Assembly (NCBI GenBank): GCA_903921455.1
Contig: CAIXPZ010000215.1
Span: 1-26,703 of the forward strand
Direction: 5' to 3'
Length of the DNA: 26,703 bases
Source of the DNA: an uncultured Verrucomicrobia subdivision 3 bacterium
GTDB taxonomy: Bacteria; Verrucomicrobiota; Verrucomicrobiae; Limisphaerales; UBA11358
Under the pieces are notes generated by a model, which worked only from the letters and a program-made list of their open reading frames with translations, was not told the DNA's origin and made no database searches. Made by a program: the position numbers and the translations under genes. Shown piece by piece: positions 4,235 to 26,703 of this stretch. Position 1 is the first letter of the stretch. Each line of letters opens with the position of its first letter.

Positions 4235-5254
4235 ATGAAACATCGGCTCGACTTCGAAAAGCCCATCATCGAACTGCAGAACAAGCTCGACGAACTCCGC
4301 GCCCATCCGGAGAAACATTCGCTGGGCATCAGTTTCGAAGAGGAAATCCTGATCATCGAAAAGAAGATTCAGGAGACGCGCCGGCAGATTTTTCTCCACC
4401 TCACCCCGTGGCAGCGGGTTCAACTCGCGCGGCATCCGCGCCGGCCTTACACGCTGGATTATTTTGAGAAAACCTTTTCCGATTTTCAGGAGCTTCACGG
4501 CGACCGCTTGTTTGCCGAGGATCGGGCGATGGTCTGCGGGTTTGCCAAACTGGGCGAACACCGGGTGCTCGTCGTCGGCACCCAGAAGGGTCGCGATACC
4601 AAGGAAAACATTCTGCGTAACTTCGGTTCCGCCCACCCTGAAGGCTACCGCAAGGCGCTGCGCTTGATGCGGCTGGCGAACAAATTCGGCCTGCCCATTA
4701 TCACCTTGATTGACACGGCGGGTGCCTATCCCGGCATCGGTGCGGAAGAGCGGCACATCGCTGAGGCGATTGCGGTCAACCTGCGCGAAATGACTCTGCT
4801 CGAAGTGCCGATCATCACCGCTGTCATCGGCGAAGGCGGTTCCGGTGGCGCGCTCGGTATCGGCGTGGCGGACCGGGTGTTGATCTTGGAGAACGCCTAT
4901 TATTCCGTCATCAGTCCCGAAGGCTGCGCGGCGATTCTTTGGAAAGATCGCGCCAACGCGGCCAAAGCCGCCGCCGCGCTGCGGATCACGGCGAAGGATT
5001 TATTGGAGCTGAAACTCGTGGACGAAATCGTTTCCGAACCGCTTGGCGGCGCGCACACCGATCCGGTGGTCATCGCTGCCACCTTGAAAATGCACCTGAT
5101 TAAGCATCTCGAGGAAGTCCTCGCCTTGCCCGTGCCGGAACGTTTGAAGCAGCGTTATCAGAAATTCCGCGCGCACGGCCATTTTGTCGAAAAAGCCGAT
5201 AATGCCGCGGAAATGAAGCCGGCCAAGTCGGGGCAAACGGTGGTCACCGCTTGA
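4235..5254 (+). CDS. accA: Acetyl-CoA carboxylase carboxyltransferase subunit alpha
   Basis: AccA forms the carboxyltransferase with AccD and moves the carboxyl group from biotin to acetyl-CoA, making malonyl-CoA for fatty acid synthesis. The 339-residue protein has the usual N-terminal helical hairpin (LDFEKPIIELQNKLDELR), ELHGDR, the near-invariant GTQKGRDTKENI followed by a PEGYRKALRLM stretch, IDTAGAYPGIGAEERHIAEA, and the glycine-rich GEGGSGGALGIGVAD. It is about 20 residues longer than most AccA proteins, and the extra lies at the C-terminus. The ATG at 4235 gives the standard N-terminus. The stop is two bases before the manA start, so the two are probably co-transcribed. Confidence 0.96.
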   Translation: MKHRLDFEKPIIELQNKLDELRAHPEKHSLGISFEEEILIIEKKIQETRRQIFLHLTPWQRVQLARHPRRPYTLDYFEKTFSDFQELHGDRLFAEDRAMVCGFAKLGEHRVLVVGTQKGRDTKENILRNFGSAHPEGYRKALRLMRLANKFGLPIITLIDTAGAYPGIGAEERHIAEAIAVNLREMTLLEVPIITAVIGEGGSGGALGIGVADRVLILENAYYSVISPEGCAAILWKDRANAAKAAAALRITAKDLLELKLVDEIVSEPLGGAHTDPVVIAATLKMHLIKHLEEVLALPVPERLKQRYQKFRAHGHFVEKADNAAEMKPAKSGQTVVTA

Positions 5255-5256
5255 CC

Positions 5257-6237
5257 ATGCTTTATCCTTTTGTTTTCAAGTCGATCTACAAGGATCGCAT
5301 CTGGGGCGGCCGCGAATTGGAACGCCTCTACGCTAAAAAAATTCCCGCCGGCCAGCCCATCGGCGAGGCCTGGGAAGTTTCCGACCGGCCCGGCGACGCC
5401 AGCGTCATAACCAACGGACCGCTTGCCGGGAAAGATATCCGCTGGCTCATGGAAAATCACGCGACGGAAATCCTGGGTGAAGCCAGGCCGGCGGCGGCCG
5501 GCCGTTTTCCGCTGCTCTGCAAAATCCTCGACGCTCGCGAAAAACTGTCGCTCCAGGTCCATCCGCCCGCCAGCCAGGCGGCGAAACTCAAAGGCGAGCC
5601 CAAGACTGAAATGTGGTTCATTGCCGACGCCGCGCCGAATGCGTGCTTGTATGTCGGCCTCCAGCGCGGCGTGACCCGCGCGGAGTTTGATCGGAAGATT
5701 TCCGACGGCACCGTGGCGGATTGCTTTCACCGCATTCCCGTCAAAGCCGGCGACACGATGTTTCTGCCGAGCGGGCGTGTTCACGCCATCGGCGACGGCT
5801 TGGTGATATTTGAGATCCAGCAGAATTCCGACACCACCTACCGTGTGTTCGATTGGAACCGTGTCGGTCTCGACGGCCGGCCGCGCGAATTGCACATCGC
5901 GCAATCGCTGGCGAGCATTGATTTCAACGACTTCGAGCCGGAACTCGTGCCTGCGAATTATCGCCCGGGTCCGGGTTTCCAATTCCGCCAGTTGGTGGAG
6001 GATCCGTTGTTCAACGTGCAGGAATTAGTGTTTGCAAACACCGGTTCCGTCAAGCTCGCCGGTCAATACCTGCGCATTATCGCCGTCACAAAGGGGGCGG
6101 CGGTCATCGCCGACGATAGCAGTGGACTGACCGCAGAATTGAAGGCCGGTGATTTTTGCCTGATTCCAGCCTGTTTGAAAAATGTCGAGGTTCGCGCGTC
6201 GGCCAATACCTCATTCCTCTGCACCGAGGCAAACTGA
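5257..6237 (+). CDS. manA: Mannose-6-phosphate isomerase, class I (short type)
   Basis: A zinc-dependent cupin enzyme interconverting mannose 6-phosphate and fructose 6-phosphate, linking glycolysis to GDP-mannose and surface sugar synthesis. The 326-residue protein begins MLYPFVFKSIYKDRIWGGRE. It has the zinc and active-site segments LQVHPPA, KTEMWFIADA, FLPSGRVHAIGDG and EIQQNSDTTYRVFDWNR, as in the short Bacillus-type enzymes. A TTG overlapping the accA stop would add two residues, but the ATG at 5257 is preferred. The gene follows accA by two bases and ends two bases from a convergent small ORF. Confidence 0.94.
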   Translation: MLYPFVFKSIYKDRIWGGRELERLYAKKIPAGQPIGEAWEVSDRPGDASVITNGPLAGKDIRWLMENHATEILGEARPAAAGRFPLLCKILDAREKLSLQVHPPASQAAKLKGEPKTEMWFIADAAPNACLYVGLQRGVTRAEFDRKISDGTVADCFHRIPVKAGDTMFLPSGRVHAIGDGLVIFEIQQNSDTTYRVFDWNRVGLDGRPRELHIAQSLASIDFNDFEPELVPANYRPGPGFQFRQLVEDPLFNVQELVFANTGSVKLAGQYLRIIAVTKGAAVIADDSSGLTAELKAGDFCLIPACLKNVEVRASANTSFLCTEAN

Positions 6238-14470: not shown

Positions 14471-16270
14471 ATGCGCTCGATTGACTGGTTGCAACTCGGC
14501 CTGTTCGTGGCTGCCCTCGCCCTCATCACCAAACCGATGGGCCTGTATCTCGGTCAGGTGTTGGATGCGAAAGGTGGAACGTGGTTTGATCCCCTCCTCA
14601 AGCCGCTCGAAAAAACCACCTGCCGCCTCATGGGTGTGGACGCCGGGCGCGAGCAGGATTGGAAACAATACACCGTTGCCATGCTGCTGTTCAGCGCAGT
14701 TACTTGTATTTTCACTTACGCCATCTTGCGACTGCAAAATCTCCTGCCCCTGAATCCCCAGGGTTTTGGCGCGCTGTCACCCGATCTGGCCTTCAATACC
14801 GCCGTCAGCTTCACCACCAACACCAACTGGCAGAGCTACAGCGGCGAATCCACCATGTCGTATCTCTCGCAAATGGTTGCTCTGGTCATCCACAATTTCG
14901 GCTCGGCGGCCACCGGCATCGCCATCGCCGCGGCGCTCGTGCGCGGCATCGCGCGGCATTCAGTCACGACCCTCGGCAACTTCTGGGTGGACCTTGTTCG
15001 CACCACTTATTATTTGCTGTTGCCAATTTGTGTCGTGTTCGCCGTGGTGCTCGTGTCACAGGGCGTCATCCAAAATTTCAATCCCTACACCAAGGCGAAA
15101 CTACTCGAACCGATGAAAATTTCCGTGGCCAAAACCGACACGAGCGGCAAGCCGATTCTCAACCAGGCGGGAAATCCGGTGATGGAAGAACAAATCGTCA
15201 CCGACCAGACCATTGTTCAAGGCCCGATGGCTTCACAAATCGCCATCAAAATGCTCGGCACCAACGGCGGCGGCTATGCCAACGCCAACGCCGCGCATCC
15301 GTTTGAAAATCCCACGCCGCTTTCCAACTTCCTCCAGATGCTCTCCATCTTCGCCATCGGCAGCGGGCTCACCTATTACCTCGGTCGCATGACGAAAAAT
15401 CAGGCGCATGGCTGGTCTATATGGACGGCGATGATGATACTCTTCGTTGGCGGCGCAGTGTTGTGTTGGTGGGCGGAGGCGCACGGCAATCTGATTCACC
15501 AGCAACTCGGCATTGTTGCCGCCGATGGCAATATGGAAGGCAAGGAAGTCCGCTTCGGCATTTTCAACTCCGCCTTGTTCGCCACGGTCACCACCGACGC
15601 CTCGTGCGGCGCGGTCAACGCCATGCACGATTCCTTCACGCCGCTGGGCGGATTCGTGCCGCTGTTCAACATCCAACTCGGCGAAATCATCATCGGCGGC
15701 GTCGGCGCGGGGCTTTACGGAATGCTCGTCTTCGTCGTGCTCGCCGTCTTCATCGCCGGACTGATGGTCGGGCGGACACCGGAATATCTCGGCAAGAAAA
15801 TTCAATCCTTCGAGGTGAAGATGGCGATGCTCTCGTTGCTGATTCTCTGTCTGACGATTCTCGGGTTCGCAGCCTGGGCGTCGGTGAGCCAGTGGGGTTT
15901 GGCCGGATTGAACAACAACGGCCCGCATGGCTTGAGCGAAATTCTTTACGCCTATTCTTCGTGCGTCGGCAACAACGGCAGCGCGTTCGCCGGCTTGAGT
16001 GCGAATACGCCTTGGTATAACACCACGCTGGGAATCGCCATGCTGTTCGGGCGATTCCTGATGATCGTGCCGATCATGGCGCTGGCCGGCGCGCTCGCGC
16101 AAAAGAAAATCTCCCCGCCCAGCGGCGGCACCTTTCCGGTGTCGGGCGCCACGTTTGTCATCCTGCTGCTCGGCACCGTCCTGCTTGTGGGCGCGCTGAA
16201 CTTTCTGCCCTGCCTCGCCCTCGGCCCGGTGGTCGAACACTTCCTGATGCTCCAGGGAGAATTGTTTTAG
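14471..16270 (+). CDS. kdpA: Potassium-transporting ATPase subunit KdpA
   Basis: The potassium-translocating, channel-like subunit of the KdpFABC pump. The 599-residue protein has about ten membrane segments and the selectivity-loop regions of the family: NTAVSFTTNTNWQSYSGEST, KMLGTNGGGYANANAAHPFE, FATVTTDASCGAVNAMHDSF and SSCVGNNGSAFAGLSANTPW. Its size is near the upper end for KdpA (about 560-600). It has a good Shine-Dalgarno sequence, AAGGA, ten bases upstream. It is followed by a short ATCGT-repeat linker and kdpB. Confidence 0.97.
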   Translation: MRSIDWLQLGLFVAALALITKPMGLYLGQVLDAKGGTWFDPLLKPLEKTTCRLMGVDAGREQDWKQYTVAMLLFSAVTCIFTYAILRLQNLLPLNPQGFGALSPDLAFNTAVSFTTNTNWQSYSGESTMSYLSQMVALVIHNFGSAATGIAIAAALVRGIARHSVTTLGNFWVDLVRTTYYLLLPICVVFAVVLVSQGVIQNFNPYTKAKLLEPMKISVAKTDTSGKPILNQAGNPVMEEQIVTDQTIVQGPMASQIAIKMLGTNGGGYANANAAHPFENPTPLSNFLQMLSIFAIGSGLTYYLGRMTKNQAHGWSIWTAMMILFVGGAVLCWWAEAHGNLIHQQLGIVAADGNMEGKEVRFGIFNSALFATVTTDASCGAVNAMHDSFTPLGGFVPLFNIQLGEIIIGGVGAGLYGMLVFVVLAVFIAGLMVGRTPEYLGKKIQSFEVKMAMLSLLILCLTILGFAAWASVSQWGLAGLNNNGPHGLSEILYAYSSCVGNNGSAFAGLSANTPWYNTTLGIAMLFGRFLMIVPIMALAGALAQKKISPPSGGTFPVSGATFVILLLGTVLLVGALNFLPCLALGPVVEHFLMLQGELF

Positions 16271-16277
16271 CCAAATG

Positions 16278-16310
16278 GCAATCGCAAATCGTCATTCGTA
16301 AATCGTAAAT
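16278..16310 (+). repeat. ATCGT-type tandem linker between kdpA and kdpB
   Basis: Four short related units in a row (AATCGCA, AATCGTC, ATTCGTA, AATCGTA) occupy most of the 43-base gap. They resemble the linker between purS and purQ at 1742-1800. There is no clear ribosome-binding site for kdpB within it. Confidence 0.55.
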
Positions 16311-16313
16311 TAT

Positions 16314-18326
16314 ATGACTCACCAAGCTCCTTCGCTTTTCGACCGGAACATCGCCGGACCGGCGGTCGTGGATGCGTTCAAAAAACTCGACCCGCGCCTG
16401 ATGATCAAGAATCCGGTCATGTTCGTCACCATGGTTGGTGCCGCGGTGACGACGGTGGCTATTTTCACCGCCACGGCGGATCGCGGTTTCATCGCGCAGA
16501 TTGGGCTGTGGCTCTGGTTCACTGTGCTATTCGCCAATTTCGCCGAAGCGATGGCCGAGGGCCGCGGCAAAGCGCAGGCGCAGGCATTGCGCAAAACTCG
16601 CGTGTTGACCAAAACCCGCCGCGTCGGCAAAAACGGCATTGAGGAAATCAGCGCCACCGAATTGCGCAAGGACGACATCGTGGTCGTGCGCGCCGGTGAA
16701 GTGATTCCGGCCGACGGTGACGTGATCGAAGGCGCGGCGAGCGTGGACGAATCCGCCATCACCGGCGAATCCGCACCGGTCATCCGTGAAAGCGGCGGCG
16801 ACCGCAGCGCCGTGACTGGCGGCACGCGCGTGCTGTCGGACGAAATCAAAATTCGCATTTCTGTCAATCCTGGCGAGGGTTTTCTGGACCGCATGATTTC
16901 ACTCGTCGAAGGCGCGCAGCGCCAGAAAACGCCGAATGAAATCGCGCTGACCATTCTGCTTTCCGCGCTCACGGTGATTTTCCTGCTCGTGTGTGTCACG
17001 CTCAAGCCGTTCGGCATTTATTCGGCCGCAAATTTTTCCGTGCCGGTGCTGGTCGCGCTGCTGGTCTGCTTGATTCCAACTACGATCGGTGGATTGTTGA
17101 GCGCCATTGGCATTGCCGGCATGGATCGGCTGCTCCAGCGGAACGTCCTGGCCATGAGCGGTCGTGCCGTGGAGGCCGCCGGCGACGTGGATGTGCTGCT
17201 GCTCGACAAGACCGGCACCATCACGCTCGGCAACCGCCAGGCGACGGAATTCATTCCCGCCCCGGGAGTGACCGAGCAGGAAATCGCCGACGCCGCGCAA
17301 TTGTCGTCGCTCGCCGACGAAACGCCCGAAGGCCGCAGCGTCGTGGTGCTGGCGAAAAAATTCGGCATCCGCGAACGGCAGATTCACGAAATGCACGGCG
17401 CGAGCTTCGTCAAGTTCACCGCGCAGACGCGGATGAGCGGCGTGGATGTGGACGGTGTGCAATATCGCAAGGGCGCAACCAATGCCATCCGCGATTTCGT
17501 TTCCACGCCAATGTCCGCGTCGGTGGAGCGCGCGGTGGAAAACATCTCCCGTTCCGGTGGCACGCCGCTTGTCGTGGCCACGCGCGAAAAAGTGCTCGGC
17601 GTCATCCACCTGAAAGACGTCGTCAAGGGCGGCATCAAGGAACGCTTTGCGCAGCTTCGCAAGATGGGCATCAAGACGATCATGATCACCGGCGACAACC
17701 AGCTGACCGCCGCCGCAATTGCCGCTGAGGCGGGCGTGGATGATTTTCTCGCCGAGGCGAAACCGGAAGACAAGCTCGCGCTCATCCGTCGCGAGCAAAC
17801 CGGCGGGCGCATGGTGGCGATGATTGGCGATGGCACGAACGACGCCCCTGCTCTCGCCCAGGCCGACGTCGGCGTGGCGATGAACACCGGCACGCAAGCC
17901 GCGAAGGAAGCCGGCAACATGATTGACCTTGATTCGAATCCGACGAAGCTTCTCGAAGTCATTGAAATTGGAAAACAGCTTTTGATCACGCGCGGCTCGC
18001 TGACGACGTTCAGCATCGCCAACGACGTGGCCAAATACTTCGCCATCATTCCGGCGATGCTCATGGTCACGTTCCCGGTCATCATGCCGCTGAACATCAT
18101 GCACCTGCACAACCCCAACAGCGCCATCTTGAGCGCCGTGATTTTCAACGCGCTTATAATCATTGCGTTGATTCCGCTCGCGCTGCGCGGTGTGGCCTTC
18201 AAGCCCATCGGCGCGCTCGCCATGTTGCAGCGCAACCTGCTCATCTACGGCGGCGGGGGCGTGCTGCTTCCGTTTATCGGCATCAAGGCAATTGATCTCC
18301 TAATCACCGGTTTGAAACTGGTTTGA
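16314..18326 (+). CDS. kdpB: Potassium-transporting P-type ATPase subunit KdpB
   Basis: The catalytic subunit of KdpFABC, hydrolysing ATP to drive high-affinity potassium import. The 670-residue protein has all P-type landmarks: TGES in [20 protein letters not shown] (actuator domain), [11 protein letters not shown] with the phosphorylated Asp298, the nucleotide-binding [30 protein letters not shown], and [20 protein letters not shown]. The length is normal (about 680). The ATG at 16314 gives the standard N-terminus. A 212-base gap with a REP/MITE-like element separates it from kdpC, which is unusual for this operon. Confidence 0.97.
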
Positions 18327-18355
18327 GTAATGAAAAGAGTATTGTCCAACGCTAG

Positions 18356-18510
18356 CTCTCACCCCGGCCCTCTTCCCCGGGGAGAGAGAGAATTGTATCC
18401 CGACTTACTCAAATGCCAGCGACTGGGATTGCCGGACGCGCATACGAAACGACCGAAACTTCCATTTGCTGTTCCCTCTCCTGGGGGGGGAGAGGGTCAG
18501 GGTGAGGGCG
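18356..18510. repeat. REP/MITE-like inverted-repeat element between kdpB and kdpC
   Basis: Two arms face each other. The left arm at 18358-18378 begins CTCACCCCGGCCCTCTTCCC, and the right arm at 18486-18506 is its reverse complement at 18 of 21 positions, ending AGAGGGTCAGGGTGAG. Each arm also makes its own hairpin (CTCTTCCCCGGGGAGAG on the left, CCCTCTCC with GGGAGAGGG on the right). The CTCACCC...CCCTCTCCCC motif is a widespread short mobile repeat type in bacteria. It encodes nothing and has no transposase nearby. An eight-G run at 18483-18490 is prone to sequencing error. Confidence 0.75.
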
Positions 18511-18538
18511 GACGTCAAACTATCCATACCAAAACAAT

Positions 18539-19129
18539 ATGAAACATCTCGTAACTGAAATTCGTGCGGCGATGATGGTCACGGTTATGTTCGCCATCGT
18601 CTGCTGTGGCATCTATCCCCTCGTCGTGTTCGGCATCGGGCAAACGTTGTTTTATAACAAAGCCAACGGCAGTTTGTTGGTTGACCGCACTGGTTCGGTG
18701 CGCGGCTCGCGACTGATCGGGCAGCAATTCACGTCGGAGAAATATTTCCAGTCGCGCCCCTCGGCGGCAGGCAACGGCTACGACGCCACCAGTTCCGGCG
18801 GCAGCAACCTCGGGCCGACCTCTTCGAACCTTGTGGCCACCATCACGCAACGCCTCGTTGATTACCGCATGCAAAATTTTCTGGCGACCAACGCTCCGGT
18901 TCCCGCCGATGCCGTCACCGCGTCCGGCAGCGGACTTGACCCGCACATCAGCGTTCGCAATGCCGAACTGCAGGCGCCGCGCGTCGCGAAGACCAGAAAT
19001 CTGCCGTTGGAAAATGTCTTGGAACTTGTTCGCCGGAATACTGATCATGCGAGCCTCGGCATTTTTGGCGAACCCGGTGTGAACGTGCTTCCGCTCAATC
19101 TCGCGATGGATGAGCAGGCTGCCCACTAA
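18539..19129 (+). CDS. kdpC: Potassium-transporting ATPase subunit KdpC
   Basis: KdpC joins KdpA and KdpB and raises ATP-binding affinity. The 196-residue protein has one N-terminal membrane helix (about 10-35, MMVTVMFAIVCCGIYPLVVF), then the family segments GSRLIGQQFTSEKYFQSRPS, SSGGSNLGPTSSNL, and VTASGSGLDPHISVRNAELQ, followed by APRVAKTRNLPLENVLELV. Full length. It lies 212 bases after kdpB beyond a repeat element, so it may depend on readthrough or on a local promoter. Confidence 0.96.
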   Translation: MKHLVTEIRAAMMVTVMFAIVCCGIYPLVVFGIGQTLFYNKANGSLLVDRTGSVRGSRLIGQQFTSEKYFQSRPSAAGNGYDATSSGGSNLGPTSSNLVATITQRLVDYRMQNFLATNAPVPADAVTASGSGLDPHISVRNAELQAPRVAKTRNLPLENVLELVRRNTDHASLGIFGEPGVNVLPLNLAMDEQAAH

Positions 19130-19150
19130 CAGCCCGGCGGCGACATCACC

Positions 19151-19318
19151 ATGAACGAATTGAAAATGCTCATATTTCTGCTCGCCGGCACTATCGGGAT
19201 TGCGGTGTTTGCCAGTTGGATGCTGCAGCTTCTGGGTCCGCCGAAAAACAAAAAGGTGAATTCCACCGCAGATTCATTAAGCTCCCATTGTGACCGAACG
19301 CGACCGTCCCAATCCTGA
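19151..19318 (+). CDS. Small single-helix membrane ORF between kdpC and kdpD
   Basis: A 55-codon frame starting MNELKMLIFLLAGTIGIAVF with one clear membrane helix (about residues 5-29) and then a polar tail beginning with PPKNKK. It begins 21 bases after the kdpC stop and overlaps the kdpD GTG start by 29 bases in another frame, an arrangement that suggests coupled translation. I do not recognise a family. It could be a regulator or assembly helper of the Kdp pump or of the KdpD sensor. Confidence 0.5.
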   Translation: MNELKMLIFLLAGTIGIAVFASWMLQLLGPPKNKKVNSTADSLSSHCDRTRPSQS

Positions 19319-21965
19319 TGCGTTGCTGGCCGCGCTGCAACGCGACGAGGCCCGTCAGCGTCGCGGTCGGCTCAAGGTCTTTCTCGGCATGTGCGCCGGC
19401 GTGGGCAAGACCTATGCGATGCTGGAAGCCGCGCGGCGCGAATTCGTCGCCGGCCGCGAGGTGGTCATCGGCTATCTCGAAACGCACGGCCGCAAGGAAA
19501 CCGATGCGCTTGCGGAGGGTTTGCCGGCCATTCCCCGCCGGCAAATGGAATACCGCGGAATCCAATTGAGCGAATTCGATCTGGATGTCGCGCTGGCCCG
19601 TAAACCACAGTTGATGCTTGTTGATGAATTCGCCCACTCCAACGCGCCGGAGTCACGTCATCCGAAGCGTTACCAGGACGTGCTGGAACTGCTCAATGCG
19701 GGCATTGACGTTTTCACCACGCTCAACATTCAGCACCTCGAAAGCCGCGCGGAAGCCGTCGCCCAAATCACCGGCGTGACGATCCACGAAACCGTGCCCG
19801 ACACGGCGTTGACGGATGCGGAATTTGAGCTGGTGGATTTGCCGCCGGACGAATTGCGGGCGCGGCTCGCGGCCGGAAAAGTGTATTTGCCCGAACGCGC
19901 CGCTACCGCCCAGGACCGGTTTTTCCGCTCCGGCAACCTATCTGCCCTGCGCGAATTGGCCCTGCGTTTCACGGCGGAACACGTCGGCCAGGATGTCCTG
20001 GAAGAGCGCCGCGCACATGGCGCGGGGGCGCCGTGGAAATCCGGTCAGCGCCTGTTGGTCGCCGTCAGTGCCAGCCCGACCTCGGCGTCACTCGTGCGCT
20101 GGACCCGGCGTCTCGCTGGTGAATTGCACGCCGCTTGGCTCGCCGTCTATGTCGAGTCCACGCGCGCTTTGTCCGACGAAGACCAGGCACGGCTGGCAAA
20201 GAATCTGGCTCTGGCGCGCGAGCTCGGCGCCGAAATCATCACCACGACCGACGACGATGTGGTGCGCGGCATCCTGCGCACGGCGCGCGAACAGAATGCC
20301 ACGCAAATCGTGGTCGGCAAACCGGCGGGCTGGCGCGTGGTTGAACTCTTTCGCGGCGGCTCCGTGTTGAACCGCCTGATTCGCGAGAGCGGACAGATTG
20401 ATGTTCACGTCGTCCGAGCCGAGGGGGAGAAAGTGGCCAGCCGCCCGGTGCGCCCGGAAAATTTCGGGAAAATTGATTTCCGCATTTACGCGTGGGTGGC
20501 CGGCATCGTGGCGGGCGTCACGGGCTTGAATGTGGTGCTGGACCAGTTCGTTGGCTTCTACGCGCTGGCGCTGACCTATCTGCTCGCGGTGGTGGTGCTG
20601 GCGTTGTTCGTCGGGCGCGGCCCGGTTTTCTTCGCGGCAACCTTGAGCGCGCTGCTGTGGAATTTTTTCTTCCTGCCGCCGCGCTTCACTTTTTTTATCA
20701 CCAGCTTCCAGGACGGCATGATGTTTGCGATGTATTTCATCGTGGCCTTGGTGCTGGGGCAATTGACGGCGCGTATCCGCGCGCAGCAAGCCGCCGAGCG
20801 GCAGCGCGAACAGCGCGCGACGGCGCTGTATCTGCTCACGCGCGATCTGGCGGAGTCGCCCGACCTCGCGCAACTGCTCGCGGTCGTCATCCAGCAGGTC
20901 GGCAATACCTTTCGTGCGGATGTGGCGCTGTCGTTGCCGGACGAATCGCAGACGGCGCCGGTCACTCCCTATTTCGCCAGTTCATGGGTGCTGTCGGACA
21001 AGGAGCAAACCGTCGCGACCTGGGCGTTTCAACACCGGCAGCCGGCGGGTCGTGGCACGGACAGTTTGCCCGCCGGCGATGGTTTGCATCTGCCGCTCGT
21101 TGCCGGCGCGCGCGCCATTGGCGTGTTGAGCCTGCGCTTTCATGACCCAGCCTCTTTGTCGCCGGCGCAGCGCGACTTGCTCGATGCCTTCACCCGGCAG
21201 ATCGCCTTGGTCTTCGACCGCGAGCGGTTGCGTGACGCGGAGATCCAGGCAAAATTTCTCGCGGAATCCGAACGCTTGGGCACGATGCTTCTCAATTCCG
21301 TTTCGCACGAACTGCGCACGCCGCTCGCGGCCATCAGCAGCGTGGCCAGCGGCTTGCGCGCGGCGGGTGCACTCAATGCCGCGCAGCAGTCCTTGACGGT
21401 TGAACTGGACGAGGCCACCCGGCGTTTGAACCGGCTCGTGCGCAATCTGCTCGACCTTTCGCGCCTCGAGGCGGGCCATTTACGGTTGAATACCGACTGG
21501 CACGACCTGCAGGATTTAGTGCGTTCGGCGCTACAGAATCTTGGCCGGTCCTTGTGCCGGCACGAATTCAAAATGGATATTCCTAGCGATTTTCCGCCGG
21601 TAAAACTGGATGCGATATTGACGGAACAAATTCTGGTAAATTTGCTCGGCAATGCCGCCGTTCATACGCCGCCGGGGACGAAAGTGGAGATTTCGGCGCG
21701 GGCGGAGGAAAATCGATTGGTGTTGCGCGTGGCCGACAACGGCCCTGGTTTGCCTGCCGGTGATACGGCCCGCTGGTTTGACCGCTTTCAGCGTGGCCCG
21801 GATGCGGTGGCGGGTGGCACCGGCATTGGCTTGTCGCTCGTCAAAGGATTTGCCGAAGTCCAGGGCGGCAGCATCAGCGCCGGGAATCGTCCTGGCGGTG
21901 GTGCGTTATTCACGGTTAAATTGCCGCTGACCAAGCTGCCGCCGGTCCCGAAGGAAAACGAATGA
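19290..21965 (+). CDS. kdpD: Sensor histidine kinase KdpD
   Basis: A membrane sensor kinase that controls kdp expression through KdpE in response to low potassium or turgor. The 891-residue protein has the KdpD N-terminal domain with Walker-type GMCAGVGKTYAML (about 33-45) and VDEFAHSNAPESRHPKRYQD, a Usp-like domain (about 250-370), four membrane helices (about 400-495), a GAF-like domain (about 520-650), HisKA with SVSHELRTPLAAI (phosphorylated His673), and an ATPase domain with NLLGNAAVHTPPGTKV, DNGPGLP and GTGIGLSLVKGFAEVQGG. The start is GTG at 19290. The stop overlaps kdpE as ATGA. Confidence 0.95.
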   Translation: MTERDRPNPDALLAALQRDEARQRRGRLKVFLGMCAGVGKTYAMLEAARREFVAGREVVIGYLETHGRKETDALAEGLPAIPRRQMEYRGIQLSEFDLDVALARKPQLMLVDEFAHSNAPESRHPKRYQDVLELLNAGIDVFTTLNIQHLESRAEAVAQITGVTIHETVPDTALTDAEFELVDLPPDELRARLAAGKVYLPERAATAQDRFFRSGNLSALRELALRFTAEHVGQDVLEERRAHGAGAPWKSGQRLLVAVSASPTSASLVRWTRRLAGELHAAWLAVYVESTRALSDEDQARLAKNLALARELGAEIITTTDDDVVRGILRTAREQNATQIVVGKPAGWRVVELFRGGSVLNRLIRESGQIDVHVVRAEGEKVASRPVRPENFGKIDFRIYAWVAGIVAGVTGLNVVLDQFVGFYALALTYLLAVVVLALFVGRGPVFFAATLSALLWNFFFLPPRFTFFITSFQDGMMFAMYFIVALVLGQLTARIRAQQAAERQREQRATALYLLTRDLAESPDLAQLLAVVIQQVGNTFRADVALSLPDESQTAPVTPYFASSWVLSDKEQTVATWAFQHRQPAGRGTDSLPAGDGLHLPLVAGARAIGVLSLRFHDPASLSPAQRDLLDAFTRQIALVFDRERLRDAEIQAKFLAESERLGTMLLNSVSHELRTPLAAISSVASGLRAAGALNAAQQSLTVELDEATRRLNRLVRNLLDLSRLEAGHLRLNTDWHDLQDLVRSALQNLGRSLCRHEFKMDIPSDFPPVKLDAILTEQILVNLLGNAAVHTPPGTKVEISARAEENRLVLRVADNGPGLPAGDTARWFDRFQRGPDAVAGGTGIGLSLVKGFAEVQGGSISAGNRPGGGALFTVKLPLTKLPPVPKENE

Positions 21966-22657
21966 ATCTTAATGACAAGCCGCTGGTGTTGATTGTGGAC
22001 GACGAACCGCAGATTCGCCGCTTGTTGACGGTCACTTTGGAAGCCAATGATTATCGTGTGCTCGTGGCGGTAAGCGGTCAGGAAGGGGTCGTGCTCGCGG
22101 CGCAGCATCGGCCCGCCTTGGTGATACTGGATCTCGGCCTGCAGGATTTTTCGGGGCAGGAAGTGCTGCGCCGGTTGCGCGAATGGAGCAACTTGCCGGT
22201 GATCGTGCTGTCAGTGCAGGACGATGAAAAAGGCAAGGTCGCCGCACTGGATGCCGGGGCGGATGATTATGTTACCAAACCGTTCAACACCGACGAACTG
22301 CTCGCGCGCTTGCGCGTGGCCTTGCGGCGTTCGCACAAGACCGGGGAAGCCGCCGTCGTTCACGCCAAAAATCTGGTAGTGGATCTCGCCAACCGCCGGG
22401 TCACTGTAGCCGGCCGGGAAGTGAAACTTTCCAAAATCGAATATGATTTACTCCGGTTGCTGGCGCGCCACGCCGGAAAAGTTTTGACACACCGGCAGAT
22501 TCTCCAGGAAGTCTGGGGGCTGGGGCATGAGCACGATACACATTACCTTCGGGTTTACATTGCTCACTTGCGCGGGAAGCTTGAGAACAACCCGGAGTCG
22601 CCAGAACTTATCCTGACGGAATTGGGTGTCGGATACCGTTTTCTTGCTTCTGAATAA
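21962..22657 (+). CDS. kdpE: Response regulator KdpE
   Basis: An OmpR-family DNA-binding response regulator that activates kdpFABC when phosphorylated by KdpD. The 231-residue protein has a receiver domain with acidic residues Asp13/Asp14 (IVDDEPQIRR), phospho-acceptor Asp57 (VILDLGLQDFSG), Ser84 (VIVLSVQDDE) and Lys106 (DDYVTKPF). A winged-helix domain follows, with LSKIEYDLLRLLARHAGKVL, VWGLGHEHDTHYLRVYIAHL and a GVGYRF end. It overlaps kdpD by 4 bases (ATGA) and is the last gene of the kdp run. No good terminator follows. Confidence 0.95.
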   Translation: MNLNDKPLVLIVDDEPQIRRLLTVTLEANDYRVLVAVSGQEGVVLAAQHRPALVILDLGLQDFSGQEVLRRLREWSNLPVIVLSVQDDEKGKVAALDAGADDYVTKPFNTDELLARLRVALRRSHKTGEAAVVHAKNLVVDLANRRVTVAGREVKLSKIEYDLLRLLARHAGKVLTHRQILQEVWGLGHEHDTHYLRVYIAHLRGKLENNPESPELILTELGVGYRFLASE

Positions 22658-22869: not shown

Positions 22870-23640
22870 TCATTTTATGGGCGTATTGGACCGGATGACT
22901 TCGATTTGGTGCAGGCGATGGGAGAGAACCGCAAGGCCTTCCGCGAGATCTTCCTTCTGGGTCACAACTCCATTGGGCAATTGCAGCTTGGCGGGAGTGA
23001 AATTCCAAATGCCTTTGACGCCGGCGCGCACCATCACGTCGGCGGTTTCTTGCGCCACTGGCCCCGGAACCGTCAACATGGCCAGCTGAATTTCCCCGCG
23101 GCGGACAAATGGGATCAGTTGCCCGATGGGCTGAACTTTGCGCCCATGAACCCATCTGCCAATGACTTTCGGATCGCTGTCAAAGGCTCCGACAATCCGA
23201 AAACCATAGTCGTGGAAGCCTTGATGACCCAACAGGGCCGTGCCTAGATTGCCGACGCCAACCAGCACCGCCTTGATTTGGTGGTTCCAGCCCAGAAAAC
23301 GCTCGATGTCGGCAATCAACTCCGTGATGCGAAAGCCAATGCGCGGTGTGCCGATGGCACCGGTAATGGCCAGATCCTTCCGCACAATCACCGACTCCAG
23401 GTGGTGCACGCTCGCCAACACCGTCCCAGACACATATTCCTGCCCCTCCGCTTGCAGAACCCGCAGCAGTTGCAAATAGGAAGGCATCCTTTTGACGCAG
23501 GCCAGTCCCGCCTTGCGCACGCCATCAGCTTGGCGCAGCAGGGTTTCGGGAAAAGCAGTCTTCTCATCCGTTAAAGGGAGCGTTGGCCGCACGTTGGGGC
23601 GTGCGCGGGAGCTGCTTTGGGGCCGGGCCTTTGTTATCAT
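22870..23640 (-). CDS. Rex-family redox-sensing repressor, with N-terminal extension
   Basis: Rex repressors sense the NADH/NAD+ ratio through a Rossmann domain and bind DNA through a winged helix. This 256-residue copy has the winged helix around residues 50-105 (PSYLQLLRVLQAEGQEYVSG, then VIVRKDLAITGAIGTPRIGF) and the NAD-binding AVLVGVGNLGTALLG at about 125-138. VKGIWNFTPAKL and VTQKEDLAEGLAVL follow in the C-terminal half. The first 50 residues are basic and polar and have no counterpart in standard Rex. The DNA-binding part departs more from the consensus than the second copy at 23927. It faces away from the second rex across a control region of 286 bases. Confidence 0.88.
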   Translation of the reverse strand: MITKARPQSSSRARPNVRPTLPLTDEKTAFPETLLRQADGVRKAGLACVKRMPSYLQLLRVLQAEGQEYVSGTVLASVHHLESVIVRKDLAITGAIGTPRIGFRITELIADIERFLGWNHQIKAVLVGVGNLGTALLGHQGFHDYGFRIVGAFDSDPKVIGRWVHGRKVQPIGQLIPFVRRGEIQLAMLTVPGPVAQETADVMVRAGVKGIWNFTPAKLQLPNGVVTQKEDLAEGLAVLSHRLHQIEVIRSNTPIK

Positions 23641-23668
23641 AAACGGTGCGTTTGCCAGAGACTGACAA

Positions 23669-23713
23669 TATCGTGATTTCGTTAACGATAGGAACAGAAC
23701 GACTCCTCGGCAA
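23669..23713 (-). promoter_or_regulatory. Predicted promoter with overlapping inverted-repeat operator for the minus-strand rex gene
   Basis: On the minus strand a -35 like TTGCCG (complement of 23708-23713) and a -10 like TATCGT (complement of 23685-23690) are 17 bases apart. The -10 is one arm of the inverted repeat TATCGT-N10-ACGATA at 23669-23690, whose centre includes CGTTAACG. Overlap of an operator with the -10 is the classic layout for autorepression. The repeat is not the textbook Rex box TTGTGAA-N4-TTCACAA. Confidence 0.4.
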
Positions 23714-23728
23714 CCAAATCTAGCTCTT

Positions 23729-23763
23729 TCCGGACTTTGCCCATGCTGGAAGCCAAGTCCGGA
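23729..23763. repeat. Perfect 9-base-pair inverted repeat between the two rex genes
   Basis: TCCGGACTT (23729-23737) and AAGTCCGGA (23755-23763) are exact reverse complements, with 17 bases between them. A second smaller repeat, CATTGG/CCAATG, lies at 23768-23787. There is no T-run for a standard terminator. They may be operator half-sites or an RNA hairpin. Confidence 0.6.
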
Positions 23764-23824
23764 GTGCCATTGGCCCTTTAACCAATGCGGATTCTATGAT
23801 CTTGCGGCATCTGCTAATCCCATT

Positions 23825-23894
23825 CACAGGGATAACTTATACTTTCTTGCCACCCTGTGCATTAGGTTGACAAAAGTGCCTCCGCGGTTTTAAT
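23825..23894 (+). promoter_or_regulatory. Strong sigma-70 type promoter with upstream inverted repeat, driving rex-hydCB
   Basis: A perfect -35 TTGACA (23867-23872) is followed after 16 bases by TTTAAT (23889-23894), which matches the -10 consensus at 5 of 6 positions. The expected start is near 23901, about 26 bases before the rex ATG. Directly upstream lies the inverted repeat CACAGGG (23825-23831) / CCCTGTG (23853-23859). Its TTCACA/TGTG parts resemble Rex half-sites. Confidence 0.6.
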
Positions 23895-23926
23895 AGAGAA
23901 ATATATATTGATATAGAGTTCACGAT

Positions 23927-24655
23927 ATGATGATCAAAACCCAGTTGCAACGACCGGACGGGACGCCTCTGAAGGTCGTCTCGGAGCCGGCCTTGAAGCG
24001 GTTGCCGCTGTATCATCGCTTCCTGAAGGAGCGGCAGGCCGCCGGGCATGAAAAGGTTTCCTGCACCGACATCGGCCTGGTTTTGAATTTGGATCCCACT
24101 CAGGTGCGCAAAGATTTGGAGTCGGTCGGTATCGTCGGTCGCCCGCGCATCGGCTATACGCTGGCGACTTTGATTGGCGAACTGGAAGCGTTCCTCGGTT
24201 GGAACAATGTGAACGACGCTTTTCTGGTCGGTGCTGGCAGCATGGGGTCGGCGCTGCTGGGCTATCGGAAGTTTGAACAATGCGGGCTGAAAATCGTGAC
24301 GGCCTTTGACTTGGATCCTTCCAAGACCGGCACGCGGATTCATGGCAAACATGTCCTCCCGCTGGAAAAGTTGCCTGACCTCGCGCGCCGGATGCATATT
24401 CTCATCGGCATCATCACTGTGCCGGCGGCCGAAGCCCAAGCCGTGGCGGATTTGATGGTTCAAGGCGGCATTCGGGCGATCTGGAATTTTGCGCCGATCC
24501 GCCTGCGCTCGCCGGAGCATGTCATCATCCATAACGAGGATCTTTATTGTTCGCTGGCCTCGCTATCGCAAAAACTATTTATGGCTCTGCAGATTACCCC
24601 TCCGGAAGCGGAACGGAAGACCAAGACCGCGGTTTCTGCGGCTCTTTCAAATTAG
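23927..24655 (+). CDS. rex: Redox-sensing transcriptional repressor Rex
   Basis: A 242-residue Rex with canonical parts: RLPLYHRFLKE (N-terminal helix), VSCTDIGLVLNLDPTQVRKD (winged helix, RKDL at 61-64), GRPRIGYTLATLIGELEAFL, the NAD-binding FLVGAGSMGSALLGY (Gly102 to Gly107), ITVPAAEAQAVADLMVQGGI and the IWNFAPIRL end. Rex represses fermentation and hydrogenase genes until NADH rises. An ATG pair at 23927 and 23930 leaves the exact start open. Nineteen bases separate it from the NuoE-like gene, so the regulator probably controls its own operon. It is clearly related to the neighbouring minus-strand copy. Confidence 0.94.
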   Translation: MMIKTQLQRPDGTPLKVVSEPALKRLPLYHRFLKERQAAGHEKVSCTDIGLVLNLDPTQVRKDLESVGIVGRPRIGYTLATLIGELEAFLGWNNVNDAFLVGAGSMGSALLGYRKFEQCGLKIVTAFDLDPSKTGTRIHGKHVLPLEKLPDLARRMHILIGIITVPAAEAQAVADLMVQGGIRAIWNFAPIRLRSPEHVIIHNEDLYCSLASLSQKLFMALQITPPEAERKTKTAVSAALSN

Positions 24656-24674
24656 CCAACAAAGAACAACATCC

Positions 24675-25178
24675 ATGCGCCCTCAATCAAAGCCTGACTG
24701 TAACGGCAGAAAGTTTGTGAAAGTTTTCACAATCTTGGAAAAACACGGACGAAAACCCTCACGGCTGGTGCCGATTCTCCAGGCCGTGCAGGAGGAATAC
24801 CGCTACCTGCCAAAAGAAGTATTAACCTACGTCGCCACGTCGCTCGATATTTCGCCGGCGCGCGTTTTTGGCGTCGCCACGTTCTACACGCACTTTGCGA
24901 TTGAGCCGAAGGGTAAGCACATCGTCCGGCTGTGCGACGGGACCGCATGCCATGTGAAGGACTCCATTCCGATCCTCGACGCCATCCGCAAGCGCCTCAA
25001 GCTCGAAGGCAAAAAAGTCACCACCGATGACATGCTGTTCACCGTCGAAACGGTCGCGTGTCTCGGCGCATGCGGCCTCGCGCCCGTTGTGGTGGTGGAC
25101 GACCAGGTGCATGGCGCGGTGACACCCGCCAGCGGCGTGAAACTTGTCGAAGAAATTATCGCCCGGGAACAATCGTAA
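24675..25178 (+). CDS. NuoE/HydC-like [2Fe-2S] subunit of a bifurcating hydrogenase or NADH dehydrogenase
   Basis: A 167-residue thioredoxin-like ferredoxin subunit. A helical N-terminal part contains SRLVPILQAVQEEYRYLPKE. The [2Fe-2S] domain has cysteines C87 and C92 (LCDGTACH) and C129 and C133 (ACLGACG), the C-x4-C...C-x3-C pattern of NuoE, HydC and HndA. It passes electrons between partner subunits. The ATG at 24675 was chosen; a longer open frame upstream only overlaps rex. The stop overlaps the next ATG (TAATG). Context (Rex upstream, HydB-type partner downstream) favours HydC over complex I NuoE. Confidence 0.9.
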   Translation: MRPQSKPDCNGRKFVKVFTILEKHGRKPSRLVPILQAVQEEYRYLPKEVLTYVATSLDISPARVFGVATFYTHFAIEPKGKHIVRLCDGTACHVKDSIPILDAIRKRLKLEGKKVTTDDMLFTVETVACLGACGLAPVVVVDDQVHGAVTPASGVKLVEEIIAREQS

Positions 25179-26656
25179 TGAACCCTCAACTCATTTTGGA
25201 TCCGGCCGCCGGCAATGGCGGCAAAACCCAGCGGCGCGTCATTGTTTGTGCCGGCACCGGCTGCGTCGCCAACGGCGCTTACAAAGTCATCACGGCTTTC
25301 AATGATCAAATCGCCGCTGCCGGCATCAGCGTCACGACCGAATTCCGGGCGGAAACCTCCCGGCACGATCTGCGGCTGAACAAAAGTGGCTGCCAGGGCT
25401 TCTGCCAGATGGGACCGCTCGTCACGATTTTGCCGGACGAAATCCTCTACAACAAAGTGAAGGTGGAGGACGTCGAGGAAATCGTCCGCGAGACGCTCGT
25501 TGGCGGCAAAGTGGTGGATCGCCTGCTCTATGTTGATCCCGCCACGAAGAAGTACTGCAAGAGCATTGATGACATTCCCTTTTACCAGCGTCAGCAGCGG
25601 TTCGTATTGAAGGAATGCGGGGTGATTGACCCCGAAAGCATTCTGGAATATCTCCACCACGGTGGTTACCTGGCGGCGAAAAAGGCGATCTTGAAAATGT
25701 CGCCGGAAGAGATCGTGCAGGAAATCACGAAGTCCGGTTTGCGCGGCCGTGGTGGTGGTGGCTTCCCGACCGGTCGCAAATGGGAGGCGGCGCGCACGCA
25801 GAAGAGCGTGAAGAAATACGTGATTTGCAACGCCGACGAAGGCGATCCCGGTGCGTTTATGAACCGCAGCGTGATGGAAGGCAATCCGCACAGCGTGCTC
25901 GAAGGCCTCATGATCGCCGCCCGCGCTATCGGTGCGGATGAGACTTTGATTTATGTGCGCGCGGAATATCCCCTCGCCGTCGCGCGGATGAAACGCGCGG
26001 TTGAGGATGCGCAGAAGCTCGGCTACCTCGGCGACAATGTTTTTGGTTCCGGCCAGAATTTGAACTGCGAAGTGCTGGATGGCGCGGGCGCTTTCGTCTG
26101 CGGCGAAGAAACTGCGATGATCGCCTCGATCGAAGGCCAGCGCGGCATGCCTCGGCCCAAGCCGCCGTTCCCGGCGCAGAGCGGATTGTGGGGCAAGCCG
26201 ACGATTATCAACAACGTCGAGACGCTGGCCCATGCTGTCCGCGTCATCAAAGATGGAGCGGATAATTTTCGCAAGCTCGGTTCAACCGCTTCGCCCGGTA
26301 CCAAAACTTTCGCGCTGACGGGACACGTTGCCAACACCGGCCTGATCGAAGTTCCGTTCGGCACCACCCTGCGCGAAGTGGTTTTAAATATCGGCGGCGG
26401 TATCACGGATCGTCGCGGAAAGGTGAAGGCGAACGGTTTCAAGGCCGTGCAAATTGGCGGACCGTCGGGCGGTTGTCTGACGCAGGATCATCTGGATTTG
26501 CCGCTCGACTATGATTCGCTCCGCAGCGTCGGTGCGATGGTTGGCTCTGGCGGTCTGGTTGCGATGAATGAAAAGACCTGCATGGTCAGTATCGCCCGGT
26601 TCTTCATGGATTTCACCCAGCGCGAAAGCTGCGGCAAATGCGTGCTCTGCCGCTAA
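25178..26656 (+). pseudogene. NuoF/HydB-like NADH-binding subunit, interrupted by an in-frame TAA
   Basis: The protein has an N-terminal thioredoxin-like [2Fe-2S] domain with C24, C29, C72 and C76, absent from ordinary complex I NuoF and typical of HydB/HndC. The flavin/NADH core follows: GLRGRGGGGFPTGRKW (FMN/NADH loop, about 187-202), NADEGDPGAFMNR, GAGAFVCGEETAMIASIEGQ, and GGPSGGCL. The [4Fe-4S] motif ESCGKCVLCR (C485, C488, C491) runs into TAA at 26654-26656, where the family has Glu. In the same frame the sequence goes on GTRQLLAMLDDIIEG to the window edge, exactly as expected of the intact gene. A single G-to-T change of GAA to TAA explains it. It could be a real nonsense mutation, a sequencing error or, less likely, recoding. 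Without readthrough the fourth cluster ligand and any C-terminal ferredoxin domain would be lost. Confidence 0.85.
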
Positions 26657-26703
26657 GGCACCCGCCAGTTGCTCGCGATGCTCGACGACATCATCGAAGG
26701 CCG

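Follow-up and report, generated by a model that had tools for sequence, protein, structure and literature searches.

An in-frame TAA close to a contig end in a hydB-like gene of an uncultured Verrucomicrobiota bacterium

When an apparently sound gene is interrupted by a single stop codon a few tens of bases before a metagenome contig ends, does the stop belong to the organism or to the assembly? The question arises for a hydB/nuoF-like gene at the end of the window, by which we mean the whole stretch of DNA analysed (26,703 nucleotides), apparently a complete contig. The gene opens with an ATG at 25178-25180 on the forward strand, and 492 codons precede an in-frame TAA at 26654-26656. Directly 5' of this TAA, the decapeptide ESCGKCVLCR (26624..26653, forward strand; encoded by GAAAGCTGCGGCAAATGCGTGCTCTGCCGC) holds three cysteines of a conserved [4Fe-4S] site, while past it the same frame continues as GTRQLLAMLDDIIEG plus 2 bases up to the contig end (26657..26703, forward strand; 47 bases). 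The first base of the TAA (26654) is thus the 50th from the edge, at 26703. A previous interpretation, made from the letters alone (hereafter the sequence-only reading), had described the series ESCGKCVLCR, TAA and GTRQLLAMLDDIIEG at these same positions, and correctly so. It had offered three options, a freshly inactivated gene, a wrong base, or a codon read through; this interpretation is supported, and we now rank a wrong or mixed base at the edge first, a recent nonsense mutation second and readthrough third. The main reason for doubting the stop is that the contig ends 47 bases beyond it, a circumstance which the sequence-only reading had not weighed. In the sequence as given the TAA is a real departure; its presence in the organism is not demonstrable from the contig alone.

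The interrupted gene and its operon

The part of the gene 5' of the stop (25178..26653, forward strand; 492 residues) was characterized by Pfam and PDB matches. It comprises a [2Fe-2S] thioredoxin-like domain, an FMN-binding domain, an SLBB-like stretch and the start of a 4Fe-4S domain. PF01257 (residues 19-105) and PF01512 (51K FMN-binding; residues 183-352) score above the Pfam cut-off, PF10531 (SLBB; residues 378-413) reaches 26.6 bits, slightly below its cut-off of 27, and PF10589 is matched at residues 472-492 by profile positions 2-22 of 85 only. A complete NuoF-type 4Fe-4S domain was not found in the window; its remainder would fall past the TAA, mostly beyond the sequence. In L001, a metagenome-assembled genome (MAG) labelled uncultured Verrucomicrobia subdivision 3 whose protein is 94% identical to the window HydB, PF10589 is matched over positions 2-85, and the hydB product of 627 residues ends with a Fer4 match at 573-595.

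The best PDB matches, 7t2r_B and 7p5h_B, are both hydrogenase B/beta subunits, and their alignments to the window HydB terminate in ESCGKCVPCR. The top-scoring solved structure is 7t2r_B (E 7.7e-182), the HydB of a NiFe hydrogenase, which we take to belong to the bifurcating NiFe-HydABCSL; unlike in that system, the gene 3' of hydB in L001 encodes an [FeFe] HydA (PF02906) rather than a NiFe large subunit. The HydB of the bifurcating HydABC of Thermotoga maritima (7p5h_B) matches window residues 21-492 (E 4.1e-171) and shares with them the FMN domain and the ESCGKCV-CR motif. In contrast to 7p5h_B, the window frame is interrupted and the C-terminal part would fall beyond the sequence end, whereas the relatives possess this part, followed downstream by an [FeFe] HydA. 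NuoF of respiratory complex I also has FMN and 4Fe-4S domains in common with the window HydB, and TIGR01959 (NuoF) is matched at 397.7 bits against a cut-off of 558.65, a score lowered by the query being a cut piece; this is perhaps also part of the cause why three NuoF models match below their cut-offs. Unlike NuoF, the window HydB carries an extra N-terminal [2Fe-2S] domain, and in L001 there is a C-terminal Fer4 domain besides.

Immediately upstream lies a hydC/nuoE-like gene (24675..25178, forward strand; PF01257 at residues 19-160, profile positions 3-143 of 145), the stop codon of which shares one base (25178) with the hydB start codon. It is preceded by a gene for a Rex-family redox-sensing repressor (23927..24655, forward strand; NF003994, 284.2 bits against a cut-off of 130, profile positions 7-210 of 217) and by a second, divergent Rex-family gene (22870..23640, reverse strand; NF003994, 249.6 bits against 130, positions 8-212 of 217). 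The same divergent pair is seen in the matching stretch of L001 (3701-4597, reverse; 4745-5473, forward), which aligns to the window in a single alignment from 22910 to 26703 with 82.7% of bases identical. The gene order there is two divergent rex genes, hydC, hydB, hydA, a radical SAM/BATS protein, a lyase-family gene and a GTPase; of the last three, the first (HydG or HydE) and the third (HydF) presumably correspond to hydrogenase maturases. Downstream of hydB, all six close relatives show a frame with TSCCP[AG]W, which we take to be a HydA motif. In the window, hydC is present and the position of hydA would be beyond the end. The relatives thus show the gene to be part of an [FeFe]-hydrogenase operon of the HydABC type. 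Further upstream, the window contains a kdpABC-kdpD-kdpE cluster for potassium transport and sensing (14471-22657).

Overall, we are dealing with an ordinary hydB, encoding a subunit of a trimeric [FeFe] hydrogenase (HydABC), from a member of the Verrucomicrobiota near MAGs labelled Verrucomicrobia subdivision 3. The HydABC of this organism is probably electron-bifurcating, as judged only by its likeness to characterised bifurcating [FeFe] hydrogenases. The C-terminal domain of HydB, with clusters B3 and B4, is described in one paper as occurring in all characterised bifurcating [FeFe] hydrogenases and as believed essential (PMC9499530).

The codon in relatives and the constraint on the gene

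Of 7,995 homologous proteins we inspected the best 120: a motif pattern placed Glu at the position of the stop in 119 of these; the remaining one, P0079, escaped the pattern because one motif Cys is Phe, and has the Glu nevertheless. The family residue named by the sequence-only reading was therefore the right one (120 of 120), and its statement that TAA lies one base away from a Glu codon holds against the six closest relatives. At the DNA level, we compared 80 loci out of at least 575 relatives: the codon is GAA in 45, GAG in 33 and GAC in one (L054), and one locus (L051) ends before the motif, so that a stop occurs at this site in none of the 79 loci that reach it. A search of 49 genomes in the family of G001 gave six (G001 included) that match nearly the whole rex-hydC-hydB query at 80-87% DNA identity. 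The codon comparison in close relatives that had been proposed earlier gives, for these six, GAA in five and GAG in one, each within an unbroken hydB of 627 or 629 residues, with 134 residues and 11 cysteines following the motif Glu in all six. In two genomes at a greater distance the codon is GAG (G003) and GAA (G004). Across 387 genomes of the phylum, with at most three candidates scored per genome, none of the matches listed has an internal stop, the best 60 (63-100% identical) included. In a separate search, the only internal stop among the matches listed is a TGA in a short G004 fragment, a weak match (E 3.2e-8) that is not an orthologue. The 49 genomes yielded no further sequence from this species, the closest being 87% identical at the DNA level, which leaves room for a real, strain-specific nonsense allele and to that extent counts against an artefact. 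Viral contigs scanned with 60 bases from near the window end, the variable base left open, gave no match, and our literature search found no paper joining hydrogenase, HydB and an in-frame stop codon.

The gene is under strong purifying constraint up to the stop and seemingly beyond it. Over the 492 codons, dN/dS with the six closest relatives ranges from 0.033, for the closest genome, to 0.065; the more distant G003 and G004 give 0.085 and 0.094. The values for the six are similar to those of hydC (0.041-0.081 against the six relatives) and lower than those of the adjacent rex (0.117-0.142). The 45 bases past the TAA differ from the six close relatives at 2 to 7 positions, and the peptide they encode is identical in five, with a single I-to-V change in G036; against G003 and G004 there are 5 and 6 differences, with two amino-acid changes each. 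The frame is thus family-like after the stop, as the sequence-only reading had maintained. Where all six relatives agree, the private changes of the window comprise 15 synonymous and 6 nonsynonymous ones, and the 6 include the stop. Strong selection together with family-like bases after the stop indicates that no decay preceded it. An old pseudogene is accordingly rejected, as no relaxed selection is seen; a loss of coding constraint was not detected over these codons, although an inactivation of very recent date would not show in this way.

Origin of the stop codon

We consider the TAA to be probably an artefact of sequencing, assembly or strain mixing at the contig end. The final 50 bases of a metagenome contig would have retained an erroneous base, or one contributed by a minor or mixed strain path, and the contig ends there in DNA so conserved that related genomes have long exact words in common. 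The base would then be wrong for the organism, as we infer from the stop lying 50 bases from the end, homologues free of stops, strong selection, no other broken gene and conserved DNA at the edge. The final 30 codons before the edge are the fourth least divergent of 479 overlapping 30-codon segments. The longest exact run shared within the gene (36-54 bases) begins at 26600-26618 for four of the six relatives, although in one of the four, G050, the run near the edge ties with one at another place. For the other two, G036 and the closest genome, G037, the longest run is found elsewhere (50 bases at 25193), which counts against an artefact. Short-read metagenome assemblies tend to break in such shared stretches, where the reads of related strains mix, and the 50 bases from the variant base to the end might reflect a de Bruijn assembler's word length. 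Another genome of the phylum offers a parallel that we count in favor of the artefact: the contig G183:C501, of 3,058 bases and with a protein 63% identical, stops two codons and two bases past the same Glu, and may hint at an assembly break point in this stretch, an anecdote rather than a measured rate. L051 likewise ends inside hydB, some 27 codons before the position of the stop, and is equally an anecdote and not a measured rate. On the other hand, the surroundings of the stop show no frameshift and no cluster of odd bases such as would mark a poor end, which also counts against an artefact.

The soundness of the remaining genes was judged by family coverage, since the 19 other frames in the window came from a list of open reading frames and a count of internal stops would be uninformative. 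Thirteen of the 19 were compared with their families. Eleven of the 13 (zwf, accA, tkt, ftsA, kdpB, kdpC, kdpD, kdpE, both rex genes and hydC) match a profile nearly end to end in a single stretch, whereas kdpA is covered in two stretches and manA partially only. No further broken gene was found among the 13.

Less likely, yet to be taken seriously, is a real nonsense mutation of very recent date, which the strain may carry in fixed or polymorphic form. It would truncate HydB within the [4Fe-4S] motif and disable an NAD-linked bifurcating hydrogenase. A single base change is enough, and the undamaged frame on either side is what a fresh loss would leave. Judged by the relatives, HydB would lose everything from the Glu onward, 135 residues and 11 cysteines, including the larger part of the [4Fe-4S] domain as well as the C-terminal ferredoxin domain; if the stop is real, HydB should not work. 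Against it stand the selection data given above, with no sign of relaxation even toward the closest genome and a preponderance of synonymous private changes, and the condition of hydC and both rex genes, which match their families nearly end to end. The position is also improbable for a mutation, with a chance of about 3% of falling within 50 bases of the edge if lesions were uniform over the 1,526 gene bases present. A more particular scenario, rather improbable in our judgment, is a population in the course of losing its bifurcating hydrogenase, where a fresh hydB nonsense allele would segregate with an intact one and would itself cause the contig break. Were the stop real, one strain would recently have lost its NAD/ferredoxin-linked H2 metabolism, an event of a common type. 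The case serves as a caution: where DNA is very conserved, a private lesion some tens of bases from the end of a contig calls for supporting reads before it is named a pseudogene or a case of recoding.

Readthrough or recoding of the TAA, yielding full-length HydB, is very improbable. The frame is indeed family-like for 15 codons past the TAA; yet TAA ends six of the 19 other frames in the window (TGA ends 10 and TAG 3), and at least five of these belong to genes that match their family nearly end to end (zwf, tkt, kdpC, kdpE and hydC). As it closes full-length genes, TAA is an ordinary terminator here, and recoding is rejected on this ground: the window gives no sign of a code with a sense TAA, and the stop is conserved in none of the 79 loci reaching the site. 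Nor were direct or inverted repeats of at least 14 bases found at 25900-26703, where the sequence ends 47 bases past the stop. A split gene yielding two polypeptides, the second restarting at an in-frame TTG (26669) or ATG (26678) downstream of the TAA, is hardly credible and was rejected, since such a break would interrupt a single [4Fe-4S] site, whose fourth cysteine we place downstream of the stop by analogy with NuoF, and all six close relatives have one unbroken frame. None of these explanations amounts to a new kind of system.

Two other sequences depart from the motif in ways of their own. In P0079, otherwise full-length with 627 residues, the substitution of Phe for one cysteine of the motif ESCGKCVLCREGT gives ESCGKFVLCREGT, which would be either a modified cluster site or a further error in sequence. 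In L054 (position 1722), the GAC noted above replaces the motif Glu by Asp, the sole case in the 79 loci reaching the motif: ESCGKCLLCRDGTRQ.
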